Of a stretch of 45,768 nt of DNA, positions 7,009 to 45,768 are shown piece by piece. A program made the position numbers and the translations under genes. Position 1 is the first letter of the stretch. Every line of letters starts with the position of its first letter. Below the pieces are notes generated by a model. It was given only the letters and a program-made list of their open reading frames with translations, was not told the origin of the DNA and ran no database searches. Source of the DNA: a virus; IMG/VR virus record IMGVR_UViG_3300027816_000161, positions 1-45,768 of that record; one strand, given 5' to 3'.

Positions 7009-7257
7009 ATGCCCAAGACGCCAGCGTGGCAGCGCAAGGAAGGCCAGAACCCGAAGGGCGGGCTGAACGCCAAGGGCCGGGCCAGCTACAAGGCTGCGAC
7101 CGGCGGCACCCTCAAGCCCCCGCAGCCGGAGGGTGGGGCAAGGAAGCGGTCATTCTGCGCCCGGATGAGCGGCATGAAGAAGAAGCTGACCTCGGCCAAG
7201 ACCGCCAACGACCCCAACTCCCGCATCAACAAGTCCCTCCGTGCATGGAAGTGCTGA
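7009..7257 (+). CDS. Basic DUF6321-like protein
   Basis: The 82-aa, strongly basic product has the order AWQRKEGQNPKGGLNAKGRAS, then SFCARMSGMKKKLTS, then a DPNSRINKSLRAWKC C-terminus. I recognise this pattern as the DUF6321 family of phage and bacterial small proteins of unknown function. An AGGAGG site lies just before the ATG. Its last seven codons and stop form the left copy of a 23-bp direct repeat that flanks the insert 7260-7619. A nucleic-acid-binding or internal head role is possible from charge but unproved. Confidence 0.8.
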   Translation: MPKTPAWQRKEGQNPKGGLNAKGRASYKAATGGTLKPPQPEGGARKRSFCARMSGMKKKLTSAKTANDPNSRINKSLRAWKC

Positions 7258-7259
7258 CA
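7237..7259. repeat. 23-bp direct repeat, left copy, flanking an AT-rich insert
   Basis: This segment is identical to 7597-7619. It covers the last codons and the stop of the DUF6321-like gene plus two to three bases. The distance between copies is exactly 360 bp. Flanking bases differ on both sides (C versus A before, C versus T after), so the repeat has clear limits. Confidence 0.9.
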
Positions 7260-7292
7260 CGCAATGGAACTTAGTTGCTTAAGGGCAGACAG

Positions 7293-7565
7293 ATGAAACA
7301 GCTAGATGTTCAGAACTTTGAGGCCAATATCAAGAAGTTCTACTTAGACCATGATGAATTGGAGATAACGCCTCTATTGGAGGGGTACTTGCAGTTACAG
7401 TACCCTTTGGGTCTGCGCCAGCCCATGGATCAGAAAACGTTCAATGACTATGCCGAACTGGTATTCAGTCACGTTGATCCGAAAGAAGTTCAGAGGTCTA
7501 TTTCGATAGCGTCGAATCTCTTAGTCAATACTGTCTTGCCTCATTGCAAGAATCTAGGAAAGTAG
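7293..7565 (+). CDS. Hypothetical protein in AT-rich insert, 90 aa
   Basis: The ATG at 7293 follows an AAGGG site at 7281-7285. The product is largely alpha-helical and acidic to neutral, beginning MKQLDVQNFEANIKKFYLDH and ending PHCKNLGK. It uses codons such as TTA, TTG, AGA and ATA that are rare in neighbouring genes. I do not recognise a family. As the only gene of a repeat-flanked insert, it may give the host or phage a selective benefit (for example superinfection exclusion or anti-defence). That is speculation from context. Confidence 0.7.
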   Translation: MKQLDVQNFEANIKKFYLDHDELEITPLLEGYLQLQYPLGLRQPMDQKTFNDYAELVFSHVDPKEVQRSISIASNLLVNTVLPHCKNLGK

Positions 7566-7596
7566 GATGCTTTCCCTCGTCACCCCTTTGCTCCCA

Positions 7597-7619
7597 CTCC
7601 GTGCATGGAAGTGCTGACA
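7597..7619. repeat. 23-bp direct repeat, right copy
   Basis: This is an exact copy of 7237-7259. In this copy the bases are non-coding and end on the first base of the ATG at 7619. It provides the same tga-c-atg junction that an uninterrupted genome would have. Confidence 0.9.
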
Positions 7620-7777
7620 TGAAGAAGCCCGTCTGGGACCGCAAGCGTCCCGCATCCCTCGGCAAGCCCAAGAAGTTGTCCCCCGCGCAGAAGGCATCTG
7701 CCAAGGCGGCGGCTGCAAAAGCGGGTCGGCCCTACCCGAATTGGGTTGATAACGCTCGCGCGGCGCGTCGCAAGTGA
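7619..7777 (+). CDS. Small Lys/Ala-rich protein
   Basis: The 52-aa basic product reads KPVWDRKRPASLGKPKKLS, then PAQKASAKAAAAKAGRPYPN and a VDNARAARRK end. This resembles the DUF5872-type small proteins often found beside DUF6321 and DUF6496 proteins in environmental phages; the family name is tentative. The start ATG sits directly at the end of the right 23-bp repeat. The stop overlaps the next GTG start (GTGA). Function is unknown. Confidence 0.7.
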   Translation: MKKPVWDRKRPASLGKPKKLSPAQKASAKAAAAKAGRPYPNWVDNARAARRK

Positions 7778-7980
7778 TCCACAACATCGACCCTGACGAG
7801 ATCGAGAACTGGCGGCGGCACCCGGTTACGCAGTTCCTCCTACAGGAGGTGCGGCGGCAGAACGTGAACCACCGCTATCGGGTTGCGACGGATCTCCTCA
7901 CGCTTGGCCGCGCCCAGGGCTTTGACGAGGCCCTTGCGCTGATGGGTAGGTTGCTCAATTCACCTGATGGGATAGGTTGA
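7774..7980 (+). CDS. Hypothetical protein, 68 aa
   Basis: The gene starts with GTG at 7774, overlapping the previous stop by GTGA. The product is helical and soluble, with an HNIDPDEIENWRRHPVTQFL start and a DEALALMGRLL helix near the end. It resembles short phage proteins of unknown role placed just before repeat-bearing virion proteins. No motif allows a function call. Confidence 0.65.
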   Translation: MIHNIDPDEIENWRRHPVTQFLLQEVRRQNVNHRYRVATDLLTLGRAQGFDEALALMGRLLNSPDGIG

Positions 7981-7998: not shown

Positions 7999-9375
7999 AT
8001 GATCCGCCGAGCCAAGCGCATGAAGACCAGCCAGATCGACGCCGCGATGGAGATGCTTCGCAGCGCAGGCCGCAATGGCGACACCGAACTGGCCCATGTG
8101 AACCCGCGCGAGAAGGCCATCCTCAAGGCCCTCGGTGGTGCCGGGAGCCGGAACCCGCGCACGGGTCTGCGGGAGTATTTTGATGGCAGGGGTCCTGATG
8201 CGGCTCCTCCTGGCTACGATCCGCCCGGTTACTTGGACGATCCTGACTACATCACGCAGGAGGATCTCCGGCGGATTGATGAGGCAGAGGCCGGGTCCCT
8301 GAGGGCGATGGACGCAGAGTCTCTTGCGCGAGCGGCTGGCTCATCTCCAGAGGTTCTTCAGCGCCACAAGTCTGCATACGACGAGGCGTACCGCATCCTG
8401 CATGACCTCATTTCTGAGATCGCAAGCAAGGGCAGGTATGGCGACACCGAAGTCGTTCCGACAACCCCGCGCGACAGGGCGATCCTCAAGGGCCTTGGTG
8501 GTGCTGGAACGGTCAACCCGCGCACGGGCCTGCGGGAGTATTACGACGAGGGCGGCAGCATGTCGTCTGATGGCATGGGCGCTCCCGGTTCTGTCGGCAC
8601 GGGTGACGTTGGTCTCGGAGAAGGGACGAACGTCGGTGCGGAGGGTCTTGGGGCGGGTCCTTCATTTGGAAATGAAAGTGGTCAGGGAGGGGGCCAGATT
8701 GCTGACCTTCCCCAGCAGGATCAGGAGGCAATCGGGCGCGGCGGCTTGATTGCGGGGCAGAATGAGGTTGCCCTATCTGGTCTTGGTGCCGTGGGACGCA
8801 GCATGGGGCGCGCACTTGATAGTGGTGATTACGCTCCGGGGGCTGGATTGTTCTCCCTTGTCGGGGCTGGGATGGCCGAACTTGGAAGGCAGGCCCGATC
8901 TGCTTACGGCCCTGACTTTGTTGCTGATCCAACCTTTGAGGGAGGTCGCCAGCGGGAAGCGTTCATGGGTGGTCCGGACTTCCCCGGCAACCGTGCTGGA
9001 GGCGACGGACTTGCGATGGCCCTTGGTGCCGTCCCAGTTTCCGCCCCGACCCCCCGCTACCTTCGCGGTGGCGAGATGGCTGCCCCGCAGGAAATCTCCT
9101 CGTTCATTGGCCCCGGCATGACCGACCTCCAGCAGCGGGCGCTCATCTCCACCTACGGGACGCAGGGCGTGAACAGCGCCTTCCGCACGGACCCGGTGCG
9201 TCGGTACTACGCCAACCTCCTGTCGCGTGGCCTCATCTCCGACGCTGGCGCTCCCGTGCAGAATCCCTATGTTCTTCCCATCGAACAGCAGTATGCTTCT
9301 CAGGTTCTGGGCCGACCGATGACCAACCCCTCGGATGCAGCGGCGGCCTATGAGTCCATCCGGGGCCTCCTCTGA
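7999..9375 (+). CDS. Virion-associated protein with repeated GDTE...NPRTGLREY motif
   Basis: The 458-aa product carries two copies of a 35-40-residue motif near residues 30-60 and 145-180. Both have the pattern GDTE, then a P-R-[ED]-[KR]-AILK core, a LGGAG element and NPRTGLREY[FY]. This motif is widespread in phage internal or tail-associated proteins. A long Gly-rich, low-complexity middle (residues about 185-330) precedes a C-terminal region with SFIGPGMTDLQQRALISTYG. The gene follows a 17-nt gap. An ejection or head-internal role is inferred. Confidence 0.65.
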   Translation: MIRRAKRMKTSQIDAAMEMLRSAGRNGDTELAHVNPREKAILKALGGAGSRNPRTGLREYFDGRGPDAAPPGYDPPGYLDDPDYITQEDLRRIDEAEAGSLRAMDAESLARAAGSSPEVLQRHKSAYDEAYRILHDLISEIASKGRYGDTEVVPTTPRDRAILKGLGGAGTVNPRTGLREYYDEGGSMSSDGMGAPGSVGTGDVGLGEGTNVGAEGLGAGPSFGNESGQGGGQIADLPQQDQEAIGRGGLIAGQNEVALSGLGAVGRSMGRALDSGDYAPGAGLFSLVGAGMAELGRQARSAYGPDFVADPTFEGGRQREAFMGGPDFPGNRAGGDGLAMALGAVPVSAPTPRYLRGGEMAAPQEISSFIGPGMTDLQQRALISTYGTQGVNSAFRTDPVRRYYANLLSRGLISDAGAPVQNPYVLPIEQQYASQVLGRPMTNPSDAAAAYESIRGLL

Positions 9376-30699: not shown

Positions 30700-31042
30700 T
30701 GCGCTTCTCCTTCATGTCGTTGATGATTTCGGATGCCTTGTCGCTAGTGATGATGTCGAGAACGTCGTTCTCCCAGTCGAACAGGGCGACGGCGATCTCC
30801 TCCTGCTCGATGTCGCCGCCGCAATGCTCGTTGATCGCTTGTGCCGTCATCTCTGTGATGTCGTGCTGGATGACATCCCGCCGCTTCTTGAACACGGTGA
30901 TCCAGGTGTCGATCTCCATCAGGGCAGAGTGACACGCGCGCAGGACCAGCTTCTCTGCCTGCGGGATTGGCTCCATGTCGAAGCGGGTGCCGTCCTTGAT
31001 GGCATTCATCCGCACGACATCGTTGGCGTACTCGTCGCTCAT
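30686..31042 (-). CDS. Hypothetical acidic helical protein, 118 aa
   Basis: The product is acidic and helical (ALMEIDTWITVFKKRRDVIQ, QAINEHCGGDIEQEEIAVAL). It overlaps the Erf gene stop by ATGA upstream, and its 3' end overlaps the SSB-like gene by 14 nt. I recognise no family. The context suggests a helper of DNA recombination or replication. Confidence 0.65.
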   Translation of the reverse strand: MSDEYANDVVRMNAIKDGTRFDMEPIPQAEKLVLRACHSALMEIDTWITVFKKRRDVIQHDITEMTAQAINEHCGGDIEQEEIAVALFDWENDVLDIITSDKASEIINDMKEKRNGTA

Positions 31043-31686
31043 GCCTCGCCCTCCCCGCTGTAACCGGCAACCAGCTTGTCCTTGAGAGCCATCAGGGCGG
31101 CATAGCCCTGCTCGCTGGCGTTCTTCACCAGCATGATGGCTTCCTTGTTCGCCAGCATGATCTCGGCCAGAGCCGTCGCATCCTGGGCCGACGACATGGC
31201 GTCGTGGATGCGCTTGTATTCGGCGCGCGGGTCGGGCTTGGACGCCCGAGTGGTCATGTTCTGGACCTGATTGCCGTCTGCCGAGTTCGCGTCGTCATCC
31301 TCCTCGGCGGCGAGGCCAAAGAAGCTGGCGATCTGATAGCGCCGGGCGAAAGTCATCAGGCTGCCCATCTCCTGCATTTTGACGATGCGGGCGCTGTCGA
31401 GCGGCATACAGGTGGACACCAGACCTCCGCCGCTGTGGAAGAGTCGCAGGCACATGACCATGCCGTCCTCGCGCCTCTCCAGCGTCTGAGTGAAGGCCAG
31501 CCCGTTGCTTGCGAGCGGGCCACGGATGCCGTCGAGGATTGCATCCAAGGTCGCGTAGGCGAACTTGTACGCCCCGCGATCCGACTTCACGCTGACCTCC
31601 CGGTTCTTCACGGGGTTGCTCATCTTGCCCTGAGCCGCCGCCAAAGCAGCGTAGAGCAGGGCCTGCTTGTCCAGGTTCTCGTCCAT
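31039..31686 (-). CDS. Erf-family single-strand annealing protein
   Basis: The ATG at 31686 follows a perfect AAGGAGGG site. The 215-aa product has the Erf core: KFAYATLDAILDGIRGPLAS near residue 43 and GSLMTFARRYQIASFFGLAA followed by EEDDDAN near residues 109-136. It anneals complementary single strands during phage recombination. The exonuclease gene lies directly upstream, separated by one base, forming a two-component recombination system. The C-terminal 75 residues are helical and variable. Confidence 0.85.
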   Translation of the reverse strand: MDENLDKQALLYAALAAAQGKMSNPVKNREVSVKSDRGAYKFAYATLDAILDGIRGPLASNGLAFTQTLERREDGMVMCLRLFHSGGGLVSTCMPLDSARIVKMQEMGSLMTFARRYQIASFFGLAAEEDDDANSADGNQVQNMTTRASKPDPRAEYKRIHDAMSSAQDATALAEIMLANKEAIMLVKNASEQGYAALMALKDKLVAGYSGEGEA

Positions 31687-31687
31687 G

Positions 31688-32464
31688 TCATCCCTCCTTG
31701 ATGCGGAGCGCACGACGCTTGTCGCGCGTCACCGTGATGCCGTGACCAGCAGCGGATCGAACATCCGCAGCCACCAGCTTCTTGATCGTATCAGCGGCCT
31801 TGTCGAACTGAGATGCGTAGTTCTTGCACATCAGCCATTCGTGTGCAGCAGATGACCACTCGTTGTTGCCCGTCATGTCAACGGTTCGTGTTGCCTCGGG
31901 TGGGTCGATCTTGACAGCCACGTTGCTCGGCGGGAGACGGAGCGTGACGCACTCCCAGAACTCCTTCTCGCGCTCGACCAGTTGCAGCGCGTACTCCTCG
32001 TTGTATTCGACCTCGATGTAGTCCCACTCGTTTCCGAGAATCACCGAGAGGTAGGCCCGCGTCTTCCCGGCGCACATCATGTTGTGGTGCAACTGAGGTT
32101 GGTAGCGCGCGAGAACTTCCTGCATGCTGGTGCGAGCGTGGGTGTGCTTGGCCTCCACGATGTGCGTTTCGCACAGCCCATCAAGCGTTGCGCGCAGGAA
32201 GCCGCTGCTCTCCACCGATACATCCCGCATGAGCGAGATGCCGGTCACCTTCTCAAACCAACTGAGGTTGAAAGCCTCCGTGGCAGATCCAAGCATGACC
32301 TGGAACTTGTCACTCAGGTCTTCCGGTTCCTTCTGGCCCGTCTTAACCAGCCAGAGGTCGTGGATGCGCTCGGCATCCCCAGACATGATGACGTTGGCAT
32401 CGGAGCCGCCGATACCCGACCTCCGGGCGTCGTGCCACGACTTGGTCTTAGCGATTGGCAACAT
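31688..32464 (-). CDS. YqaJ/lambda-exonuclease-like recombination nuclease
   Basis: The 258-aa product carries the PD-(D/E)XK set of YqaJ nucleases: GIGGSD at residues 17-22, Glu63 in GSATEAF, Asp95 in ATLDG, and Glu104-x-Lys106 in VEAKH. Gln122/Gln124 lie near HHNM. It resects dsDNA to give 3' single strands for Erf. An AAGGAGGG site precedes the ATG. Erf follows one base after its stop. Confidence 0.85.
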   Translation of the reverse strand: MLPIAKTKSWHDARRSGIGGSDANVIMSGDAERIHDLWLVKTGQKEPEDLSDKFQVMLGSATEAFNLSWFEKVTGISLMRDVSVESSGFLRATLDGLCETHIVEAKHTHARTSMQEVLARYQPQLHHNMMCAGKTRAYLSVILGNEWDYIEVEYNEEYALQLVEREKEFWECVTLRLPPSNVAVKIDPPEATRTVDMTGNNEWSSAAHEWLMCKNYASQFDKAADTIKKLVAADVRSAAGHGITVTRDKRRALRIKEG

Positions 32465-33662: not shown

Positions 33663-34586
33663 TCAGTCTAGGTACGCTCTCAGGATTTCGGCCGCGACCT
33701 GCGGGACAATCGCGTTACCGTAGGCGCGCAGGCGTCCCACTCGGTTGGATACCCCATGAGCCAGCGGCTGAATGCCGGGTTCAACGCGCCGCGATTTTCC
33801 GTCTCTGCACGGGACAGGCTGACCTGACGACCAAGCAGTCCGTTGATCGGCACCCCGGCTTTGTCCAGATCCGTTGACCCGTCCTTGTGGTCGCGCGTCG
33901 TTGGAGTCGCCCAGCCCGAGAGCAATGCCGCCCCCGGCAGCCCCGCTGCATCCTCGTTGGCCGATGGAGTCAGACAACCCGAGAGCAATGCCGCCCCCGC
34001 CAAATGCGCTTCGTCCCGCAGCTTGTACCGCGCGTGAGTCAACGGTCGGATCTGCATCACGCCACCCTCTGCGTCGCTCGCTGACGGACTGCGCCACCCA
34101 CCATAGCCGCTGCCGTATGTGCGGTGCGCCGACGCTCGCAGCGCAGAAATCCGCCGACCAGACGGTGTAGTTCGCAGCTTCCAGGTCAGCGCATACTCCA
34201 TCGAGCCAGCGCAACCCATCCTTGCTCGCAACCTGTTCTCCAGCCACGACAGGGGGCCTCCGCTCGCGGACGAGGGCGGCAAGGACGGGCCATAGGTGTC
34301 GCTCATCTGCTTCCCCCTTGCGCTGTCCTGCCGACGAGAAGGGCTGGCAGGGGCAGGAGCCTGTCCAAAGAGGTCGGTCGTCGGGCCATCCTGCGAGGCG
34401 CGCGGCGAGGCTCCAGCCTCCGATGCCGGCGAAGAAGTGGCATTGTGTGTATCCGATGAGGTCGTCCGGCTTGACATCCACGATGCTCCTTTCGTCAACG
34501 TCGCCTGGAGCTATGTGTCCAGCAGCGATCAGGTTCCGCAGCCATTGTGCTGCATAGGGATCAATCTCGTTGTAGTAGGCTGGCAT
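33663..34586 (-). CDS. DNA cytosine-C5 methyltransferase
   Basis: The start ATG 34586 follows GGAGGAGG. The 307-aa product carries C5-MTase motifs: [12 protein letters not shown] (motif I, residues 50-61), GSCPCQPFS with catalytic Cys80 (motif IV), GEQV at 116-119 (motif VI, with Gln where ENV is usual), RQRLWWVA (motif VIII, 158-165) and YGNAIVPQ (motif X, about 289-296). It methylates cytosine in dsDNA, likely to avoid host restriction. The gene contains a second, 265-codon frame nested inside it. Confidence 0.85.
33680..34477 (-). CDS. Nested overlapping protein inside the cytosine methyltransferase gene
   Basis: A second leftward frame of 265 codons lies wholly inside the methyltransferase gene, offset by one base. 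Its ATG at 34477 has an AAAGGAG site (34492-34486) 8 bases upstream. It contains segments I know from separately annotated phage proteins: [20 protein letters not shown] with [10 protein letters not shown] (residues about 75-110), [12 protein letters not shown], and [20 protein letters not shown] near the C-terminus. The conserved-looking C-terminal segment is coded by the same bases as the MTase region before motif X. No enzymatic motif is visible, and the function is unknown. Dual coding is likely but unproved. Confidence 0.55.
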
Positions 34587-41523: not shown

Positions 41524-42305
41524 CGATCAAGTTCTTTGCGCCCAGCGGCGCTCCGCACCAGCTTGGCGAGAACCTTGCCCGCAACTGGATGCACGGTGAG
41601 CATTACGCGCGCCACGGCGAGCCGCTCGCGGAGATCAATCTCCACTACGGCATCCTCTACGGCGGCGCGGAGATGTACCGCAAGACCCAGGAGGAATGGA
41701 AATCCTACGTCCATGTGGACCACGCCTTCTTTGGGCGCACGGAGGACCTGAACAGCAGGGGCGGGTACTTCCGTTTCTCGCTTAACAACCAGTCAAACGA
41801 GCGGAAGCTGACCGTCGAGTACGATTCGCGCCGCTTGGAAACCCTCCAGAAGAAGGGATTGCTCAAGCTGGAGCCAAAGAGGGCCATCAAGAAGAGCCGA
41901 CTGGTCATCTACCAGCCGCCGAGTGCATACATGGTGCAGCACTACGGTCTCTCCCCCGACTTTGACGGCAAGTGGAGGGCCACCTTGAGGCGTCTCTACC
42001 CCGGCATGATGGTCGTGACGACCCAGAAAAGCCCAAAAACCGACGATTTCTGGGAGAACGTGGCCGTCGTGGCGTCGTTCAACTCCGGTTTGGGCTATGA
42101 GGCGCTCCGCAAGGGCTGCGAGGTCGTGATGACCGCACCGAGGACGCTCTGGCCGTGGAAAACCGGAGACCTGACCGACGGAAAGTGGGGCGAACGGCGC
42201 TATGAGACGTTCTGCCTGATTGCCGGTCGCATGTGGAACTTCAAGGAGATGGCGAACGGCGAGGCTTTGGAGCATATGAAGGGCAATGGGGAGATTCCGC
42301 TGTGA
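41520..42305 (+). CDS. Capsule-synthesis/glycosyltransferase-like protein, 261 aa
   Basis: The product resembles capsular polysaccharide synthesis (PF05159-like) proteins. The strand-helix segment VAVVASFNSGLGYEALRKGC corresponds to the nucleotide-sugar binding NS-x-x-G-x-E-A-L motif, and WRATLRRLYPGMMVVTTQKS is a preceding helix-strand. The N-terminus contains SYVHVDHAFFGR. It could act on sugars or lipid A-like glycans. It begins a run of glycan and methyltransferase genes. Confidence 0.6.
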   Translation: MTIKFFAPSGAPHQLGENLARNWMHGEHYARHGEPLAEINLHYGILYGGAEMYRKTQEEWKSYVHVDHAFFGRTEDLNSRGGYFRFSLNNQSNERKLTVEYDSRRLETLQKKGLLKLEPKRAIKKSRLVIYQPPSAYMVQHYGLSPDFDGKWRATLRRLYPGMMVVTTQKSPKTDDFWENVAVVASFNSGLGYEALRKGCEVVMTAPRTLWPWKTGDLTDGKWGERRYETFCLIAGRMWNFKEMANGEALEHMKGNGEIPL

Positions 42306-42631
42306 TAAAAGCCAAGTCCGCGAAGGCAAAGGGCCGTCGCCTTGAGCAATGGATCGTCAAGCAGCTTGAAAGCCTTGGCTTGGCTGCTCATCGGCAACCT
42401 GGCTCTGGCGCTTTCGATGCGTTTCCTCACGATGTATCTGCTCGACTGAAGGACGGGACACAGATCCTTGTCGAAGCAAAGCAGCGCAAGAAGGACGCAT
42501 GGGCCACGGGCGAGCGATGGCTTGGCCGCGCTGATGTCCTTGTCGTGCGGATCGACCCGGAGCCGTTCCAGCCCGAGAACGAGCCGCGCGTCTACATGAA
42601 GTGGTCCACGTTCCAGAGGCTTGTCGGCTGA
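42302..42631 (+). CDS. PD-(D/E)XK Holliday-junction resolvase-like nuclease
   Basis: The 109-aa product starts with GTG (GTGA overlap with the previous stop). It has GRRLEQWIVKQLESLG with Glu15, then HRQPGSGAF, HDV with Asp44 and LVEAKQRK with Glu58-x-Lys60. These are the residues of Hjc-like junction resolvases and small PD-(D/E)XK nucleases. It likely resolves branched DNA before packaging; the position right behind terminase fits. Confidence 0.75.
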   Translation: MIKAKSAKAKGRRLEQWIVKQLESLGLAAHRQPGSGAFDAFPHDVSARLKDGTQILVEAKQRKKDAWATGERWLGRADVLVVRIDPEPFQPENEPRVYMKWSTFQRLVG

Positions 42632-42933
42632 TGCCGCAGGAAATGACCCCGGCCCGCATCATGGGCTACCGCAAGATGGCCGACAATCGTCGTGGTCGTC
42701 GCTGCATCAAGCTGGCGACCACCGGCAACATGCACCCGCTGGTCCGTGAGTTCTACGAACTGGTCAACGAGGACCCGTTCCTCACGTTCAAGGTGCTGTC
42801 CGAGCGGTCTGGCGTACAGATCGACACGATGAGCCAATGGCGCTACCAGCACTCGCCAGCGCTCGTTACCTTCGAGGCCGCGCTCAACGCCGCTGGCTAT
42901 GAACTCTGCATCAGGAAGAGGAGGGACGCATGA
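42631..42933 (+). CDS. HTH regulator-like protein, 100 aa
   Basis: The C-terminal half contains an XRE/Cro-type helix-turn-helix: FKVLSERSGVQIDTMSQWRY followed by FEAALNAAGYEL. The N-terminus is basic (RIMGYRKMADNRRGRRCIKL). It overlaps the resolvase stop by one base. It may regulate phage promoters such as those with the double dyads, which is inference. Confidence 0.7.
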   Translation: MPQEMTPARIMGYRKMADNRRGRRCIKLATTGNMHPLVREFYELVNEDPFLTFKVLSERSGVQIDTMSQWRYQHSPALVTFEAALNAAGYELCIRKRRDA

Positions 42934-43226
42934 CTAGGCAGGAACTCATTGAGAAAGTGGCTCGCGATCTTGGCGGGGAGTCTCACGATCCAAAGGACCT
43001 TGAGTGCTTGGCGGAAGCAATCATAGATATTGTGGTGCAATCAGAAGTCGATCTGCTCAAGGCGGTATCAGCGGAAATATGCAAATACAACAAACTGGAC
43101 CCTGATGGCGTGATGGTGCATGAGCGCAGGCCCGTTGGATGGAATCCTCAGTCGATTTTGTTTGGTTTTGCTGACGCAGCAAATGACGCAATCGATTCAA
43201 TTCGTTCACTTGGTAAAAGCCAATGA
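42930..43226 (+). CDS. Hypothetical protein with AT-leaning codon use, 98 aa
   Basis: The product is acidic and helical (EKVARDLGGESHDPKDLECL, then EAIIDIVVQSEVDLLKAVSA). GC content is lower than in neighbours, suggesting a separate origin. It overlaps both neighbours by four bases. No family is recognised. Confidence 0.65.
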   Translation: MTRQELIEKVARDLGGESHDPKDLECLAEAIIDIVVQSEVDLLKAVSAEICKYNKLDPDGVMVHERRPVGWNPQSILFGFADAANDAIDSIRSLGKSQ

Positions 43227-45062: not shown

Positions 45063-45768
45063 ATGAAAGTGATGATCTGCTCGTCCTGGTCGGAGGCGGG
45101 CTTTGAACTCTACGGGCGTCGCTGGCTTGAGACCGCTAGCAAGTATTGGGATCCTAGTATCGAAATTAATGTCATCAGCGACAAGCATCTCGAAATGGAT
45201 CCTGATTTTCGGAACTTCATGGCTCGTCATGCGGTTCAAAAGTTGGATCCTAAGCAGCCGGGATACGACTACCGGCAGGATCTTCTGCGATTCGCCCACA
45301 AGGTCTTCGCTCTGAAGGAGGCTCTTGAGGATGCTAGCTATGGCGGAGAAGATGGGCTGGACGACGGATGCGACTGGCTTGTCTGGCTAGACGGCGATGT
45401 CGAGACCCGCGCCCCGCTCACGATGGACTTCCTCAAGCACATCCTGCCCGAGGACAAGGACGGGGTGCTGCTCTCGCGCGCGCAGACAGCCACGCATCCC
45501 GAGTGCGGGTTCATGGCCTTCAACCTTCGCCGCAAGGGGGCTGACTTCCTCCGCAAGTTCATCGGCATGTACGAGAAGGACGATGTGCTGAAGCTGTCGG
45601 AACTGCATGACAGCTACGTCTTCATGGTCTGCGTCATCGCACACATGGAGAGCGAGAAGAGCGAGTGGCACGACCTCTGCCCCGCCGGAGCCGGTCCCTA
45701 TGGCCTGGACGCCTTCGAGGCCAGCCCGCTGGACAACGTGTTCGTCCACAAGAAGGGCAACCGCAAGG
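45063..45768 (+). CDS. Glycosyltransferase-DUF115 fusion, N-terminal part, continues at 1
   Basis: The gene starts one base after the FkbM gene stop. The first 194 codons read KVMICSSWSEAGFELYGRRW, then RQDLLRFAHKVFALKEAL and WLDGDVET (DGD at residues 110-112), a glycosyltransferase-like module. No stop occurs before the repeat, and the frame continues into 1-1410 to give DUF115/MAF-like motifs. A single 662-aa enzyme is inferred. It is the last gene of the cassette and overlaps the portal start. Confidence 0.75.
   Translation, partial: MKVMICSSWSEAGFELYGRRWLETASKYWDPSIEINVISDKHLEMDPDFRNFMARHAVQKLDPKQPGYDYRQDLLRFAHKVFALKEALEDASYGGEDGLDDGCDWLVWLDGDVETRAPLTMDFLKHILPEDKDGVLLSRAQTATHPECGFMAFNLRRKGADFLRKFIGMYEKDDVLKLSELHDSYVFMVCVIAHMESEKSEWHDLCPAGAGPYGLDAFEASPLDNVFVHKKGNRK
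45642..45768. repeat. Terminal direct repeat, right copy
   Basis: This is the second copy of the 127-base repeat at 1-127. It lies inside a coding region on both ends, and the frame is the same in both places. Trimming one copy gives a circular genome of 45641 bp. Confidence 0.95.

Follow-up and report, generated by a model that had tools for sequence, protein, structure and literature searches.

A single-gene AT-rich insert framed by a 23-bp direct repeat at an insertion-prone gene boundary of a phage genome: a probable recent gain by recombination between phages

In the window, by which we mean the whole stretch of 45,768 nucleotides that was analysed, a DUF6321 gene and the MKKP gene (MKKPVWDR...) are separated by an AT-rich insert of 337 bp with one gene of 90 aa, and the insert is framed by an exact 23-bp direct repeat, CTCCGTGCATGGAAGTGCTGACA (Table 1). 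Direct comparison of the sequences bore out the initial annotation in that the two copies of the repeat are identical with a start-to-start distance of 360 bp, that the left copy is the end of a DUF6321-like gene, and that the DNA between the copies is richer in AT (G+C 45.1% vs 62.0% for the window, essentially the window minimum for 337-bp stretches). The shuffled window held no match to the 23-bp repeat, even with up to 3 mismatches allowed, and no longer exact direct repeat occurs in the 45.8-kb window apart from the 127-bp contig-terminal repeat. The latter is an exact direct repeat of the contig ends (1-127 = 45642-45768), and because of it the window probably represents a whole genome, assembled as a circle of about 45,641 bp. 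Two other repeats were observed: a 105-bp direct repeat of 79% identity (8075-8179 vs 8438-8542) in a 458-aa gene, which has the motif GDTELAHVNPREKAILKALGGAG and represents an internal protein duplication, and a 22-bp exact repeat (33915-33936 = 33978-33999, with a spacing of 63 bp) in the minus-strand gene for the C5 cytosine methylase, in which the peptide GGGIALGL is repeated.

The 90-aa ORF is the sole ORF of note within the insert and, as had been annotated, has a ribosome site of its own, AAGGG, 7 nt upstream of its ATG. No relative of the insert leader was found outside the window's own species, and no relative of the insert tail was found. An ATG at 7567 opens a 16-aa ORF, MLSLVTPLLPLRAWKC (7567-7617), which is an in-frame fusion of the tail with the right repeat and resembles the truncated start of a donor gene. 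The insert has two inverted pairs, both weak and internal, and neither is located at the insert ends. One refinement concerns the right border, where the final A of the right repeat doubles as the A of the MKKP ATG, so that MKKP starts at 7619. Elsewhere in the window, an AT-rich single ORF of 98 aa (42930-43226, about 50% G+C) lies tight between two genes and could be a second recent gain.

Table 1. Features of the DUF6321/MKKP boundary and the recombination genes of the window.
Feature	Position	Strand	Remarks
DUF6321 gene, left neighbour	7009..7257	+	82 aa, ends SLRAWKC and stop; PF19846 E 6.9e-22
Left repeat copy	7237..7259	+	DUF6321 last codons and stop, then CA
Insert leader	7260..7292	+	Shine-Dalgarno-like AAGGG at 7281-7285
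90-aa ORF	7293..7565	+	ATG 7293, stop 7563-7565, G+C 43%
Insert tail, 31 bp	7566..7596	+	from sequence
Right repeat copy	7597..7619	+	GGAAG ribosome-site-like motif and A of next gene's ATG; conserved at relatives' junctions
MKKP gene, right neighbour	7619..7777	+	52 aa; phrog_34011 E 2e-15
68-aa gene	7774..7980	+	beyond MKKP; identity to L100/L099 high again
YqaJ-type exonuclease	31688..32464	-	PF09588 E 6.3e-15
ERF-family single-strand annealing protein	31039..31713	-	PF04404 E 3.5e-17

IMG/VR was scanned for the right-hand joint, TGGAARTGCTGACATGAARAARCC, which was present in 42 stretches. Three of them belong to the window's species (L091, L111 and L121, which are contigs of L001, L002 and L003) and have the insert or the right joint, and the other 39 have an insert-free tight junction, ...WKC-TGA-C-ATG, with a single repeat copy. 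The gene downstream of these empty junctions is MKKP[IV]W... in 25 stretches and a second gene type in the rest. Removal of the insert plus one repeat from the window gives TGACATG, which is the junction of the 39 other stretches, as the initial annotation had anticipated when it proposed to look for insert-free phages with the gene pair joined at one repeat copy. Among the empty relatives, L099 (flank identity 97.6% on the left and 92.5% on the right) and L100 (93.6% and 94.5%) are the nearest. The window's species is represented by four records (99.6-100% identical), each with the insert and both exact repeat copies, and no empty or deletion variant was present among them. Because the close relatives are empty and all records of the window's species are filled, the insert is a recent difference, and the 90-aa gene is recently gained. 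A recent moron-type acquisition, as first proposed, is supported by the very close relatives joined at exactly one repeat copy, and further by the retained AT-rich composition, which is that of the T4-like relative described below.

Three kinds of bearers of the 90-aa family were found in IMG/VR: the window's species, L004 and L176. L004 is a T4-like contig of 55.7 kb, the gp43-type DNA polymerase of which is about 50% identical to the enzymes of T4-like marine viruses and cyanophages, and its ORF has 71-73% amino acid and 75% DNA identity to the window's. The values of dN (0.21) and dS (1.29) between these two genes fit a real protein under purifying selection. The GC3 of the 90-aa gene is 0.56 vs 0.85-0.89 for the genome, and this composition, together with the 75% DNA identity, points to an AT-rich T4-like phage as the source. 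The relative in L004 lies near the gp43 polymerase gene, and the product most probably belongs to the early accessory proteins of T4-like phages. The search did not yield the donor molecule itself: L004 is without DUF6321, its gene is at 75% DNA identity, and the leader and tail match nothing. ACG-2014f, a T4-like cyanophage with DUF6321, was tried as a bridge to the donor and rejected, since its next gene is a 1.2-kb ORF and not the 90-aa gene. A literature search on DUF6321 yielded no paper.

The 90-aa protein had no match in Pfam, PHROGs, NCBIfam or PADLOC, and scans for the family in named phages, plasmids and bacterial genomes yielded nothing usable. A structure-database search had been recommended, and the PDB profile search gave weak chance matches only, and structure prediction returned a weak all-helical model (pLDDT 55 with two sequences and 60 with three) that was too poor for use. 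The anti-defence or exclusion role that had been suggested for this protein is thus unsupported; an anti-defence role is possible, and nothing indicates it.

The third bearer, L176, has its ORF at the same junction, with about 38-39% amino acid identity to the 90-aa protein (E 1e-22). This homologue ends in ...ARKC and a stop, and over its terminal 21 nt it agrees with the DUF6321 end at 17 positions, which was equalled by one in 3000 codon shuffles. L176 could be another and older instance of this anatomy, or the trace of a cassette that carries the gene end along. Copies of the DUF6321 gene end after inserts are not a general pattern, since among 107 junctions they were present in the window's species and L176 only. 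The homologue in L176 with its imperfect repeat copy would also suit a loss, in which an ancestor had the 90-aa gene at the junction and most relatives lost it cleanly between the repeats. We consider this unlikely, since the window gene is nearer to that of T4-like L004 (73%) than to that of L176 (39%), its GC3 is atypical of the genome, empty junctions are widespread and include L099 at 97.6%, and the window's species has no deletion variant.

The DNA on the two sides of the insert differs in its closest relatives. The window DUF6321 gene is 99% identical to that of L099 at the DNA level, and the 68-aa gene is 99% identical to that of L100 and 95% to that of L099. The window MKKP gene, however, is 99% identical to that of L123 but 88-90% to those of L099, L100 and L115, and the latter three show 93-94% identity to one another. 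By these identities, the window MKKP appears as a foreign allele relative to the close relatives L099, L100 and L115. Because MKKP is L123-like while its flanks are 95-99% identical to L099/L100, the joint is also a mosaic breakpoint, and because the 68-aa gene is again L099/L100-like, the insert came with, or adjoins, a short imported patch ending near 7770. As L123 is a contig of 4.3 kb, the assignment of the right arm is based on 141 bp. Among 35 distinct full-motif sequences, an MKKP ending in NWVDNAR (window 7740-7765) was present only in the window's species, L123 and L005 (5451-5612). Two of these three bearers of NWVDNAR have an insert immediately upstream; the other MKKP endings differ and are mostly NLVDNMR. 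An origin of the right repeat from an L099-like allele, for which two further matching bases (CA) had been taken as a sign, was dropped, since the MKKP just downstream is not L099-like.

Such joints could in principle be produced by the ERF protein of the window, with the YqaJ exonuclease as its likely partner (Table 1). Recombinases of the Erf type are better than RecA at joining short or diverged homology, and in phage lambda an Erf/exonuclease pair is far better than RecA at joining diverged DNA (PMC3945230). A possible Holliday-junction resolvase or PDDEXK nuclease was also observed at 42233-42631 (PF01870 E 0.0015, below the cut-off).

We scanned for the MKKP gene and its start and measured the gap to DUF6321, which in most close relatives amounts to 1 nt; in L005/L175 it reaches 626 nt and in L176/L177 458 nt. 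The insert of L005 holds a 209-aa ORF, and the first ORF in the gap of L176/L177 is the homologue of the 90-aa protein. More distant relatives of the window have at the same junction an Endonuclease VII gene (L185, PF02945 2e-17), an Endonuclease VII-type gene recognised by its likeness to that of L185 (L236), a NUMOD4-HNH gene (L164, PF07463 and PF13392), and a 208-aa gene with no assigned function (L232). This junction is not alone in being insertion-prone: the g158/DUF6321 boundary is filled in L099 and L100, and the boundary between MKKP and the 68-aa gene is filled in 6 of 20 cases, so that the block as a whole admits insertions. The gene at the 5' end of DUF6321 in L100 (L159 2170-2800) is of the Endonuclease VII type (phrog_1035 E 5e-29). 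There the DUF6321 start is present twice (27 of 33 nt alike, 6 mismatches), as a 14-codon remnant, MPKTPAWQRKEGQN and a stop, and as the full gene behind, and because of this the DUF6321 gene of L100 is complete again. A gene family recognised by eye in L099 and L086, NWF...YDYRGAW...HPT.WKEFF, with no assigned function, is located at two different boundaries of the same block (L152 2156-2740, and the gap between MKKP and the 68-aa gene of L086 and L114).

By their family matches, predicted homing-type endonucleases are among the settlers of the DUF6321/MKKP block, as they are at other phage gene boundaries (PMC10448857, PMC2988022), and their action on the block is a plausible driver. In that case a free-standing homing endonuclease, from a partner phage or in trans, would have cut the conserved DUF6321/MKKP boundary, and the break would have been repaired with foreign DNA and the flank co-converted, with the 90-aa gene as a passenger or as the successor of an endonuclease formerly located there. 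The genes of L185, L236 and L164 at the same boundary and that of L100, one of the two nearest relatives, at the DUF6321 5' end are in keeping with such a capture, and the foreign MKKP allele beside the insert resembles a co-conversion tract as in T4 homing (PMC2988022). However, a pattern search of the window's frames gave no homing-endonuclease motif, and the 90-aa protein has no nuclease motif and no match to HNH, GIY-YIG or Endonuclease VII families (Pfam, PHROG, NCBIfam). The endonuclease bearers at this exact junction are distant (DUF6321 58-61% identical in amino acids), and the neighbouring boundaries have non-nuclease inserts as well. We therefore regard a capture driven by homing as possible but doubtful.

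In the empty phages the 23 bp of the repeat contain the final codons of DUF6321 with its stop as well as GGAAG and the first base of the MKKP ATG, and they thus have a double role. Any insertion between the DUF6321 stop and the MKKP ATG leaves MKKP without a ribosome site, unless the overlap is doubled or a new site is supplied, and the duplicated 23 bp of the window leave DUF6321 and MKKP both intact. L005 illustrates the alternative, in which the 209-aa ORF begins at the original ATG and a new GGGGAGAG is present ahead of MKKP. The inserts of L005 and L176 lie at this junction too, with no exact duplicate, which makes duplication one possible solution rather than a requirement; we infer that there was selection for keeping the overlap twice.

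The 23-bp repeat is best read as the overlap of two joined arms around a foreign gene rather than a mobility signal. The movement by recombination at the repeat that the initial annotation had considered was not borne out: there was no site-specific recombinase, no terminal inverted repeat and no empty conspecific, and a gene overlap kept twice explains the repeat better. A minimal mobile cassette that integrates by site-specific recombination at a 23-bp attachment site in the DUF6321 3' end, like the integrative elements at tRNA 3' ends, would explain why the gene-end target is regenerated on both sides and why the same gene family, with a repeat-like end, occurs at the same site in two lineages. 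Such an integration is nevertheless quite unlikely, as the 337 bp contain no integrase or recombinase (an enzyme in trans is conceivable), the window and L176 inserts have no common ends, and L005, L185, L164 and L232 have unrelated genes at the junction without a repeat. As the family is at the junction in two lineages, and in both of them a copy of the DUF6321 end comes after it (an exact one in the window, 17/21 in L176), one could also picture the 90-aa family as a minimal mobile cassette that lands at DUF6321 ends and regenerates the gene end on the far side, driven by the 90-aa protein itself or by a homing endonuclease in trans; we hold this to be very unlikely. A single small ORF between exact direct repeats would moreover be expected from a transposition like that of insertion sequences or MPMEs with a 23-bp target-site duplication. 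This is highly improbable, since terminal inverted repeats and any transposase-like family match are absent, the leader, tail and gene were found at one site of one species with no second copy or insertion site, and 23 bp is long for a target-site duplication.

We propose that the insert is a recent moron-type gain through inter-phage recombination at an insertion-prone boundary, selected to keep both neighbours functional, and we assign this reading a probability of roughly 0.62. Given the empty sites, the differing inserts, the foreign allele, the double position of the 23 bp and the ERF/YqaJ genes, the events may have taken the following order. An accessory gene of another phage would have been captured at the gene boundary by recombination between phage genomes, possibly with the use of ERF and YqaJ. 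The left arm would be L099-like phage DNA ending just after the DUF6321 stop, the middle piece would be the AT-rich 90-aa gene together with short remnants of the donor, and the right arm would begin 23 bp further upstream and bear the L123-like MKKP allele, so that the overlap of the two arms would be the 23 bp of the direct repeat. The overlap would have been retained because both neighbours depend on these 23 bp at once, DUF6321 for its end and stop and MKKP for its ribosome site and start; a joint without the duplicate would have damaged one neighbour or would have had to bring its own ribosome site along. The same picture would result if the 23-bp target had simply been duplicated within one genome and the MKKP allele had then been exchanged in an independent event.

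The locus exemplifies gene gain in wild phages with unusual completeness, as it shows filled and empty states, a near-unchanged relative, a likely source group, the joint and a foreign allele. It points to a simple rule, by which an insertion at an overlapping gene pair would survive if the overlap is duplicated or a new ribosome site is brought. The block of about 7.0-8.0 kb is a place of exchange of small genes and homing-type endonucleases among freshwater phages.

Morons, novel genes at the gene boundaries of mosaic phage genomes, are a known kind of acquisition. The insert is like them in being a single gene of foreign composition with its own ribosome site, exactly between two conserved genes and absent from relatives, but at its joint the neighbours' overlap is duplicated exactly over 23 bp, and morons are not defined by such a feature. 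Predicted endonucleases like the free-standing (intronless) homing endonucleases of T4 and related phages (PMC2988022; PMC10448857) occupy the same boundary in the window's relatives, and the foreign flank allele beside the window insert is like a co-conversion tract, but the insert itself has no recognisable nuclease. The MPMEs of mycobacteriophages (PMC3029335) are similar in size (about 0.3-0.4 kb), in having one small ORF and in their presence or absence between near-identical phages; they carry inverted repeats, are of constant sequence (439 bp), insert at several sites and make a 6-bp addition (PMC3029335), whereas the window insert has no inverted repeats, a single site and a 23-bp target duplicate. 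With the mosaic joints of Rad52-like recombinases (PMC3945230) the window phage shares the encoded ERF and YqaJ and a joint in a short sequence conserved between lineages, although a role of the recombinase in this phage is inferred. The kind of event is thus already known, and this case of it is unusually clear.
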